Assembly (NCBI GenBank): GCA_021604765.1
Contig: BQJP01000024.1
Coordinates: 1 to 41,519, forward strand
DNA: 41,519 nucleotides
DNA from: Thermodesulfobacteriota bacterium
Lineage (GTDB): Bacteria > Desulfobacterota_D > UBA1144 > Nemesobacterales > UBA2774
Direction: 5' to 3'
Part shown: piece after piece, positions 14,785 through 17,377 of the stretch
Layout of the letters: every line of letters starts with the position of its first letter
Position numbering within the stretch: the stretch's first letter is position 1
Translations under genes and position numbers: made by a program
The notes under the pieces: generated by a model
Databases searched by the model: none
Told to the model about the DNA's origin: nothing
The model's input: the letters and a program-made list of their open reading frames with translations, nothing else

Positions 14785-14869
14785 TTAACTATCTCCTTAG
14801 AAATATTAATAAGCCTTTATGTTACCTGATGCGCCGAATTATATTAAGCCGACAATAAAAATTAAGCAT

Positions 14870-14904
14870 TGCTTATCCATGATCGCCACAATATACTATA
14901 TTGT
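14870..14904 (+). promoter_or_regulatory. Promoter with overlapping palindrome, likely leaderless start
   Basis: A -35-like TTGCTT (14870-14875) and a -10-like TATACT (14892-14897) are 16 bases apart. Transcription would start around 14904, at the ATG of the next gene (14905), for which no ribosome-binding site is visible. A perfect 8-bp inverted repeat, ACAATATA-c-TATATTGT (14888-14904), covers the -10 box and ends at the start codon. It could be an operator. Confidence 0.45.
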
Positions 14905-15318
14905 ATGAAGAGAACAATATTAACACTTTTCCTGTTAGTAATTCCCTTTATGATCACAACTTCATTTGCCCAGAATTATAACGACAACACCATGGCGGCT
15001 CATCCGGAATGGTACATTAAAGTGACAGAGTGGAATGTATATGCCACATGGAGCGCCGTTGCCATCATTCATCACGTTACGATTGAGAACAACAGCGACA
15101 TTACTTATAAGGATGTTAAGGTTAGAGTCTGCTATAGTTCAATGTCCACAGGCGGGGCGGGTACAATTGTGAGCCAGGAAGTAGGCGTGCTGCCAGTTAC
15201 AATCCCACCCAGAAGCAAAAAAACTTACCTTACCTCCGGACACACTCTTGGGGCTGCTTCAACATTTATGAACGCTGTAGACCTGCAAGTGCTGAGCGCA
15301 ACACCGATTATAAACTAA
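14905..15318 (+). CDS. Small secreted protein with FxLYD-like domain
   Basis: The ATG at 14905 is chosen because it starts a clean Sec signal (MKRTILTLFLLVIPFMITTSFAQ, written here in part as LFLLVIPFMITTSFAQ); a TTG at 14869 would add residues with no signal character. The mature part of about 115 residues contains HHVTIENNSDITYKDVKVRV, then LPVTIPPRSKKTYLTSG, which resembles the beta-sandwich of FxLYD/DUF3426-type domains that follow extracellular or periplasmic anchors. Function is unknown. No ribosome-binding site is seen; see the promoter entry. Confidence 0.65.
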   Translation: MKRTILTLFLLVIPFMITTSFAQNYNDNTMAAHPEWYIKVTEWNVYATWSAVAIIHHVTIENNSDITYKDVKVRVCYSSMSTGGAGTIVSQEVGVLPVTIPPRSKKTYLTSGHTLGAASTFMNAVDLQVLSATPIIN

Positions 15319-15476
15319 CCGGGGCAAATCGAGTTAAAATCTTAGGCATCCTCACAACCTGCTGCATTCATTGGATATATTGAGATTTTACAATCTTTCA
15401 GAACAGTTTTTGACCAAACATTCCGTAAACAAACATAATTATTTTCACCATTTTTGAATTTTCAAAAAATAAGGGG

Positions 15477-15504
15477 TTACAAAAAAAATATTTTTAGTTA
15501 TAAT
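15477..15504 (+). promoter_or_regulatory. Candidate promoter of the structured RNA / propeller lipoprotein
   Basis: TTACAA (15477-15482) and a perfect TATAAT (15499-15504) are 16 bases apart. The predicted start near 15511 lies just before the structured RNA, and about 250 bases before the lipoprotein gene. Confidence 0.4.
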
Positions 15505-15513
15505 AACTTATAA

Positions 15514-15589
15514 CCGGATGTTACAACCCGAGCCCCATGTAACCGGAAACTAATTGTCTTGGCAGAAATTAGATATAAGGTGGGGCTCG
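15514..15589 (+). ncRNA. Structured RNA candidate with a possible pseudoknot
   Basis: Hairpin 1: CCG..GTTAC (15514-15524, three-base bulge) pairs with GTAACCGG from 15539 to 15546. Hairpin 2: CTAATT (15550-15555) pairs with AATTAG (15567-15572). The loop of hairpin 1 holds CGAGCCCCA (15529-15537), which pairs perfectly over nine bases with TGGGGCTCG (15581-15589). This gives an H-type pseudoknot, or an alternative fold that competes with hairpin 1. The region lies in a 445-base gene-free stretch (15319-15763). It matches no riboswitch or ribozyme consensus I know. It could be a cis-acting leader of the 15764 gene or a separate small RNA. Confidence 0.4.
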
Positions 15590-15763
15590 CTAGGATTAAT
15601 ACTTATATATACTTACTATTAAAGCAGTTGCATTACCGCCGGTTTTGGTTTTAAAAATAGTCAAGCAAAAGAAGAGTTTTGTATACTTCTGGATAAGAGG
15701 ATATGTATAAGTGTATTTAATTCTAGTGTTGCAATCCGTATATTTCTATATAATTTAACTAAA

Positions 15764-17377
15764 GTGATATTTGGCCAGCTTACAAAACCATTTAACCTCA
15801 AGTTAGTAATCATTATTATTTCCGCTTTTATATCTATAGGTGGGTGCGGAGGTGCGGGAGGAAGCTCGCAGAACGGTGGCGGCGGAGATAACCAATCTTT
15901 AGAATCACTTTTAAAACGCTTCCCAATAGACGGATCAGTAGATCTTTCGGCCTTTGTGGGTGTATCTGAAGTTGAGATATTGCTTAGAGATATAGCCGGG
16001 CAAGGAATAAAAACCACAACTCTTAGATACGCTATAGTTAATGACGACAGAAACATATACTTTGCGATGGTCTGGAACGACGACACTTTTAACAATACGT
16101 TTACACTTGAATTTGGCCCAGAGAACTTTGACGGAATATTCATTAGCTTTGATAAGAACGGAAATCAAGACTTCGACAGTGGAGATGCTGCGAATAGTGT
16201 GATATCGGCCAGGCTTGGATCTGTTTATAACGACAACCATGATCCAGAGCTTTCTGAAGATAGCATAGAGGACGGCTTTGGCAGTCTCTCTTATAATCCG
16301 GTTACTAAAATGTATAGTGCGGAATTTCTTATCCCTCTTAACAACGATATAAACGGGCAAGATGTAACTATCACAAACAACACAAGGTTTAATATCTCCA
16401 TATTCGATAATATAACGCTTCCCGAGTTCACAGGTAATACCGGACAGGCATTTGAAGACGGCAATTGGAAAACTATAGAGCTTAAGACAGTTACAAATGT
16501 TGATCACCCAGCTATTCCCAATAATCTGAGCGGACTTATAGCATTTATAAGCGACCATGAAGTTCCCGAAAACGGGGAGATTTATACGTTTAATCCTTCA
16601 ACTTTTGAGGTTAAGCGGATTACAAATATGCCTGAGTTTTTTAAAGACAACGTCTCGCTTTCAAATGACCGCACAAAAGTGGCATTTCATGGCTCTCCGG
16701 ACGCCCTCTCTTTTGGCGAATACGATATTTATACAACAGATATAGCGACAGGCATCATAACACAGCTCACCGATAACGAACCGGTACTTGATGGCCACCC
16801 TGCATGGTCTCCCGATGACTCGGAGCTTGCCTATGCTTCATTTAGACCACAGGGAGGAGCAAGAATAGTAATTATAAATACGTCTGGGAAAATTCTACGA
16901 GATCTTGACGCAGGGGCAGACGATAACGACCCCGATTACTTGCCTGACGGGCGCATAGTTTTTAAAACCGACAGGTTTAATATGCAGCCAAATGTACAGA
17001 TTGCTGTAATGAACCCTGACGGCTCAAATGCAGAACAGCTGACCTTTAAGACGGACATATCAGACCATGACCCTGTTGGGGATAGCTTTTCAGTACTATT
17101 TGAGAGGTTTAACAAAGATACCGATTTCTCAACCGACCCCGATACGGGCCTTACAGCATGGGATATTGTTCTGGTTGATATAGCGAGTAAGTCTGAGAAT
17201 ATACTAGTCGCAGACGGCTGGGTAAACTGGCTGCCAGTTTATTCTCCAGATAAAAAGTACATTGCTTACCAAAAATCCTCTGGTTATACGGATGTCCATC
17301 TAACCGATAAACAAGGTAGTTGTTTTGGCAGACTGATACCCAATATTTCGAGAATACGTTACATAGACTGGAAATAA
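15764..17377 (+). CDS. TolB-like propeller lipoprotein with N-terminal CBM9/DOMON-like domain
   Basis: The 537-residue product starts at GTG and has a lipoprotein signal (LKLVIIIISAFISIG-G-C) followed by a Gly/Ser linker. Residues about 60-240 form a beta-sandwich (NDDRNIYFAMVWNDDTF, FDGIFISFDKNG, KMYSAEFLIPL) resembling CBM9/DOMON-type domains that bind sugars or heme. From about 255 to the end, repeated motifs such as GHPAWSPDDSELAYAS, DPDYLPDGRIVFKTDR and LPVYSPDKKYIAYQKS are PD40/TolB-type propeller blades. No WD or catalytic residues are seen. A weak ribosome-binding site precedes the start. It is probably an outer-membrane or periplasmic binding/scaffold lipoprotein. Confidence 0.75.
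   Translation: MIFGQLTKPFNLKLVIIIISAFISIGGCGGAGGSSQNGGGGDNQSLESLLKRFPIDGSVDLSAFVGVSEVEILLRDIAGQGIKTTTLRYAIVNDDRNIYFAMVWNDDTFNNTFTLEFGPENFDGIFISFDKNGNQDFDSGDAANSVISARLGSVYNDNHDPELSEDSIEDGFGSLSYNPVTKMYSAEFLIPLNNDINGQDVTITNNTRFNISIFDNITLPEFTGNTGQAFEDGNWKTIELKTVTNVDHPAIPNNLSGLIAFISDHEVPENGEIYTFNPSTFEVKRITNMPEFFKDNVSLSNDRTKVAFHGSPDALSFGEYDIYTTDIATGIITQLTDNEPVLDGHPAWSPDDSELAYASFRPQGGARIVIINTSGKILRDLDAGADDNDPDYLPDGRIVFKTDRFNMQPNVQIAVMNPDGSNAEQLTFKTDISDHDPVGDSFSVLFERFNKDTDFSTDPDTGLTAWDIVLVDIASKSENILVADGWVNWLPVYSPDKKYIAYQKSSGYTDVHLTDKQGSCFGRLIPNISRIRYIDWK

Follow-up and report, generated by a model that had tools for sequence, protein, structure and literature searches.

A previously undescribed RNA gene, whose fold is preserved in relatives and whose product would be a real, working RNA, very probably lies in the gene-free stretch 15319-15763 of the window (the whole 41,519-nt stretch of DNA analysed here). 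The reading that we favour, and consider fairly probable as a whole, is that of a stand-alone small-RNA gene of about 205 nt which has its own sigma-70-type promoter, opens with an H-type pseudoknot at the 5' end and most likely gives a regulatory RNA acting in trans. The features of the locus are as follows.

15476-15504, + strand: putative promoter, with GTTACA at 15476-15481, a 17-nt spacer and TATAAT at 15499-15504; 10 of 12 consensus positions match
15512-15719, + strand: predicted stand-alone small-RNA gene, about 205 nt, delimited by the promoter and the conservation limits
15514-15517 and 15520-15524, + strand: 5' strand of the outer stem S1 (CCGG and GTTAC), complementarity re-formed in other genera
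15529-15537, + strand: 5' strand of the pseudoknot helix S2, CGAGCCCCA; 96% of the S2 cells are paired over 11 genomes
15539-15546, + strand: 3' strand of S1 (GTAAC CGG), from the sequence check and the eleven-genome comparison
15550-15572, + strand: hairpin P2, CTAATT (15550-15555) with AATTAG (15567-15572), from covariation
15557-15565, + strand: conserved apical loop of P2, UCUUGGCAG
15581-15589, + strand: 3' strand of S2, TGGGGCTCG, from the alignment of 11 genomes
15593-15600, + strand: AU-rich motif GGAnUAWU directly after the knot, in 11 of 11 genomes with small changes
15639-15653, + strand: conserved island CCGGTTTTGGTTTTA within the 3' part, 85% identical in each of the three congeners
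15692-15700, + strand: conserved island GATAAGAGG near the putative 3' end, at genus level

Single-sequence evidence and distribution among relatives

The gene-free stretch comprises 445 bases with 32% G+C and is flanked by the gene 14869-15318 on one side and by an ORF starting at 15764 on the other; the host genome has a size of 3.4 Mb and is 95% complete. The first-pass annotation had described here a hairpin whose loop pairs over nine GC-rich bases with a downstream strand, and a sequence check of the window located every element it named exactly where it had been placed. When base composition is disregarded, 29% of dinucleotide shuffles of the gene-free stretch contain a nine-base inverted repeat within 80 nt, so that the bare repeat is unremarkable. 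A repeat with at least seven G+C among the nine bases, in contrast, appeared in none of 2000 dinucleotide shuffles of the stretch. The folding energy of the stretch is ordinary, with a z of -0.71. In view of the chance tests and this ordinary energy, the evidence from the single sequence is suggestive only, and the convincing case is the comparison with ten relatives, in which conservation, covariation and constant promoter spacing come together. The only other GC-rich nine-base inverted repeat within 80 bases in the window, TCCCCCCGG...CCGGGGGGA at 352-384, is a hairpin with a 15-base loop.

The RNA is present in 11 genomes, which belong to four genera of a single Candidatus Dadabacteria family, and was not found elsewhere. 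A DNA search retrieved copies with 91-93% identity in three congeners and partial matches in two more. The covariance model R1, built from six sequences (the window and five congeners), revealed five further copies in three other genera of the family with E values of 1.6e-9 to 5.8e-7. The model R2, built from eleven sequences and applied to 58 genomes from the phylum, returned nothing convincing outside the family, the two weak matches having E values of 0.05 and 0.06. Similarly, the RNA is not there at the loci around homologues of the upstream gene in other families of the phylum. When the 5' motif was used as a search pattern, four matches beyond the known copies came up, none of them a genuine copy; the candidates L098 and L101 were rejected as lying inside ORFs, and L029/L089 and L031/L090 as lacking the rest of the element. 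A pattern scan of 84,980 species genomes picked up seven contigs, four of which are titled Candidatus Dadabacteria, while the other three, labelled Deltaproteobacteria (two) and Thermodesulfobacteriales (one), match relatives already placed in the window's genus. The viral contigs, phages and plasmids searched gave no match.

Wherever the contig of a relative shows it, the RNA occupies the same syntenic place. Five genomes of the family without a match are not evidence of loss. A close counterpart of the upstream gene was not found in G001 and G013 either, the site in G011 was probably not assembled because the downstream neighbour lies 587 bases from the contig end, and the completeness of G008 and G012 is 77 and 59%, respectively.

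Fold of the 5' domain

Helix S2 retains eight or nine of its nine pairs in the eleven genomes. It is formed by CGAGCCCCA/TGGGGCTCG in four genomes and by TGAGCCCCG/CGGGGCTC(A or T) in seven, as exemplified by the variant pairing TGAGCCCCG/CGGGGCTCA. Both end pairs covary in the eleven-genome alignment with changes on both sides; compensatory changes in the nine-base pairing, for which the first-pass annotation had proposed a covariation search, are thereby seen across the 11 genomes. The other seven pairs never vary and are therefore silent on pairing, and each of the two variable end pairs may reflect just one or two events. In hairpin P2, three of the four tested pairs show two-sided changes. 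The stem appears as CUAAUU/AAUUAG, GGGUCC/GGACCC or AAUCC/GGGUU round the conserved loop; judging from the alignment, it has been rewritten several times in sequence with its shape around UCUUGGCAG kept. The loop itself is retained in 9 of the 11 genomes, with single-base end changes in G002, G004 and G010, and is lost in G005 and G006. When S2 and P2 are taken together, 94.4% of the cells in the eleven-sequence alignment are paired. Two-sided changes occupy 19 cells vs. 6.4 in shuffles, the covariation is 0.338 vs. 0.176, and none of 500 shuffles reaches the observed values. Sliding the register brings the paired cells down to 31-55%.

The outer stem S1 comprises 7 bp in both G010 (CCGGUUG/CAACCGG) and G015 (UCGGUUG/CAACUGA), and reads CGGUUG/CAACUG in G007 and G014. 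In the window's genus it consists of the CCGG pair and a second short helix of the GUUAC/GUAAC type, and in G009 it is weak. Since the 5' segment is nearly invariant, S1 can be tested from one side only, and its combined shuffle p of about 0.001 was obtained over lineages that are not fully independent. In most lineages the stem seems to have been rebuilt with a different sequence; it is moderately supported and the least certain part of the fold. A junction of 1-3 nt separates S1 from S2, and P2 is housed in the long third loop. This geometry (S1, a short first loop, S2, the 1-3 nt junction and the long P2-bearing loop) suits an H-type knot. The pseudoknotted structured RNA suggested earlier is most probably of this type, with S2 and P2 covarying and S1 moderately supported.

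A plain long hairpin, in which S2 and P2 make up one bulged rod, S1 does not exist and the 5' segment is either a hairpin GGWUGUUACAACC or single-stranded, is unlikely. It is the structure chosen by thermodynamic folding, which cannot draw knots, and a perfect 5-bp hairpin can be formed by the 5' segment of g2 and G010. However, this hairpin is broken and uncompensated in 7 of the 11 genomes, namely all six of the window's genus and G009, with 3-4 of the 5 pairs left, whereas the complementarity of S1 is re-formed in different sequence and its short junction to S2 suits an H-type knot.

Promoter, extent and comparison with known RNA families

In each of the 11 genomes, the fold begins 7-8 nt downstream of a TATAAT or TATACT box. 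Based on this spacing and on the promoter, transcription is predicted to start at 15510-15513, in line with the transcript start near 15511 that had been anticipated. A second promoter-like site, TTGACC-18-CATAAT, lies upstream of the RNA promoter at 15410-15439, in a region poorly conserved in two of the three congeners.

The conserved block 15460-15719 falls to background at both ends. Identity to the three congeners is mostly 0.3-0.6 in the upstream gap and 0.85-1.0 in the core, which is at or above the conservation of the neighbouring protein gene (0.5-0.9 at the gene end). On the 3' side of the core, identity is patchy, 0.4-0.9, up to 15719, and 0.2-0.5 after that; a U-rich relative of the island CCGGTTTTGGTTTTA occurs in other genera. 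The constant spacing of the -10 box, together with the bounded conserved block, points to a stand-alone RNA gene of about 205 nt. The first-pass annotation had placed the elements correctly but had drawn the RNA too small, at 15514-15589 vs. the predicted 15512-15719. The 3' end would fall at the limit of conservation, which is its sole marker, and a terminator scan of the locus found no intrinsic terminator. A length of about 205 nt is compatible with the situation in G010, where the next gene is convergent and has its end 219 nt from the start of the RNA. Two other readings of the site were discarded. It is not terminator-like, as an intrinsic terminator of the upstream gene would be, and as a coding element it fails, since the short ATG frame 15518-15553 loses its start in G003 and other genera and there is no conserved ORF.

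The first-pass annotation knew of no riboswitch or ribozyme with this layout, and a comparison with the 4227 families of Rfam bears it out: no relevant match was obtained in the window at the gathering score or in seven relatives at E up to 1. A permissive Rfam scan of the window with E up to 10 likewise gave no relevant match, and a tRNA/tmRNA scan of the window found nothing. The RNA was also rejected as the genome's missing copy of tmRNA or RNase P RNA, ordinary ones of both being encoded elsewhere in the genome.

A diverged 6S RNA, or a functional 6S stand-in binding RNA polymerase, appears improbable. Both RNAs have in common a stand-alone setting, a size of about 200 nt and a strong promoter of their own. 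No Rfam 6S match above the cut-off exists in any of the 58 phylum genomes, which leaves room for such a stand-in and may reflect either insensitivity of the model or real absence. Furthermore, a closing stem AACCGG/CCGGUU (15512-15517 with 15639-15644) can be drawn in the genus, enclosing an open region as well as an inner stem rich in G+C. However, this stem is lost outside the genus and for that reason was not adopted. The 6S RNA is one rod with a central bubble, whereas the Dadabacteria RNA is a predicted pseudoknot, which is not known as a 6S feature. The latter is also confined to one family of the phylum and shows no sequence or structure match to 6S (RF00013), permissive filters included, although the silence of the 6S model means little because it also misses 9 of 14 control genomes.

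Other pseudoknotted RNAs resemble the Dadabacteria RNA in part. The ToxI-type antitoxin RNAs of type III toxin-antitoxin systems are likewise small RNAs with an H-type pseudoknot, but ToxI is a tandem repeat adjoining toxN, whereas here there is one copy and no toxN-like neighbour was recognised. The HDV-like and pistol self-cleaving ribozymes also combine a pseudoknot with an extra hairpin, but the helix order differs, the P3 that HDV has between its crossing strands being lacking here, and Rfam gave no match to them at E up to 10.

Neighbouring genes and proposed function

Most relatives have retained w14869, the upstream gene, next to the RNA, and most have w18114 and w18740 on the downstream side. 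The protein encoded at 14869-15318 is small and secreted-looking and has no Pfam match. Many genomes of the order carry several copies of it, and longer proteins of about 490 aa match it over a part. The lipoprotein-like ORF 15764-17377, with a PD40 repeat, stands at this place in the window genome alone, the relatives having other genes after the RNA. None of the 15 other genomes of the family has a full-length relative of it, only the PD40 repeats being matched there; the ORF seems to have been added in this lineage, directly behind the conserved block of the RNA.

The first-pass annotation had left the choice between a cis element of this lipoprotein gene and a separate small RNA. A cis-acting leader, i.e., a riboswitch-like pseudoknot controlling the lipoprotein gene or another downstream gene, is highly improbable. 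The H-type pseudoknot is known from several classes of riboswitch. The next gene in the window with the orientation of the RNA is the lipoprotein ORF, whose start is 175 nt downstream of the knot, and in G009 the next gene is co-oriented as well. Synteny already largely refutes this reading, however. The lipoprotein gene, unique to the window genome, is absent beside the RNA in 10 of 10 relatives and lies outside the conserved block, which stops at about 15719, ahead of the gene. Of the nine relatives where the next downstream gene can be scored, eight have it in convergent orientation, on the opposite strand. In nine of ten relatives, the nearest downstream gene is far off or on the other strand, and 219 nt is the shortest distance between the RNA start and the first downstream gene. 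No conserved same-strand downstream gene, such as a riboswitch or another cis leader would have, was found. The SAM-II, preQ1 and NAD+-II type riboswitches share the interlocked two-stem fold, but they are leaders right upstream of the controlled gene, whereas the Dadabacteria RNA is preceded by a predicted promoter of its own and is usually not followed by a co-oriented gene. The putative promoter, whose -10 box is present in 11 of 11 genomes, and the convergent gene order argue for the separate small RNA.

An element acting as DNA (a protein-binding inverted repeat or a recombination site) could account for the invariant inner GAGCCCC/GGGGCTC, but has next to no probability, given that the P2 pairing is kept while its sequence changes, that the element has a single orientation and a fixed distance to the TATAAT-type box, that conservation reaches about 200 nt to one side of this box, and that there is no viral, phage or plasmid match.

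For the stand-alone small RNA, the following course of action can be proposed. Transcription from the sigma-70-type promoter would yield an RNA whose 5' end nearly coincides with that of the H-type pseudoknot. S1 (15514-15524/15539-15546) and S2 (15529-15537/15581-15589) would interlock through the 1-3 nt junction, and the hairpin P2 in the long third loop would display the conserved loop UCUUGGCAG. The AU-rich 3' part, which is less well understood, would follow the knot. We assume that the knot serves as a rigid scaffold on which the P2 loop, as the likely contact site, and perhaps also the nearly invariant 5' segment are presented to a protein or other RNAs. The result would be regulatory action in trans by a lineage-specific RNA. 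A bolder version, in which a new structured RNA class of this one Dadabacteria family acts as a global regulator of the housekeeping type, e.g., replacing 6S, with the H-type pseudoknot at the 5' end as its working part, is quite unlikely.

Nearly all knowledge of Dadabacteria comes from metagenomes, and an open-literature search found no paper on their small RNAs. The RNA described here provides the phylum with a candidate regulatory RNA of its own, clearly conserved, predicted to be promoter-driven and probably pseudoknotted. The alignment and the covariance model are ready for finding more copies. In general, the locus may offer a compact natural example of an H-type knot beginning at a predicted transcription start site.
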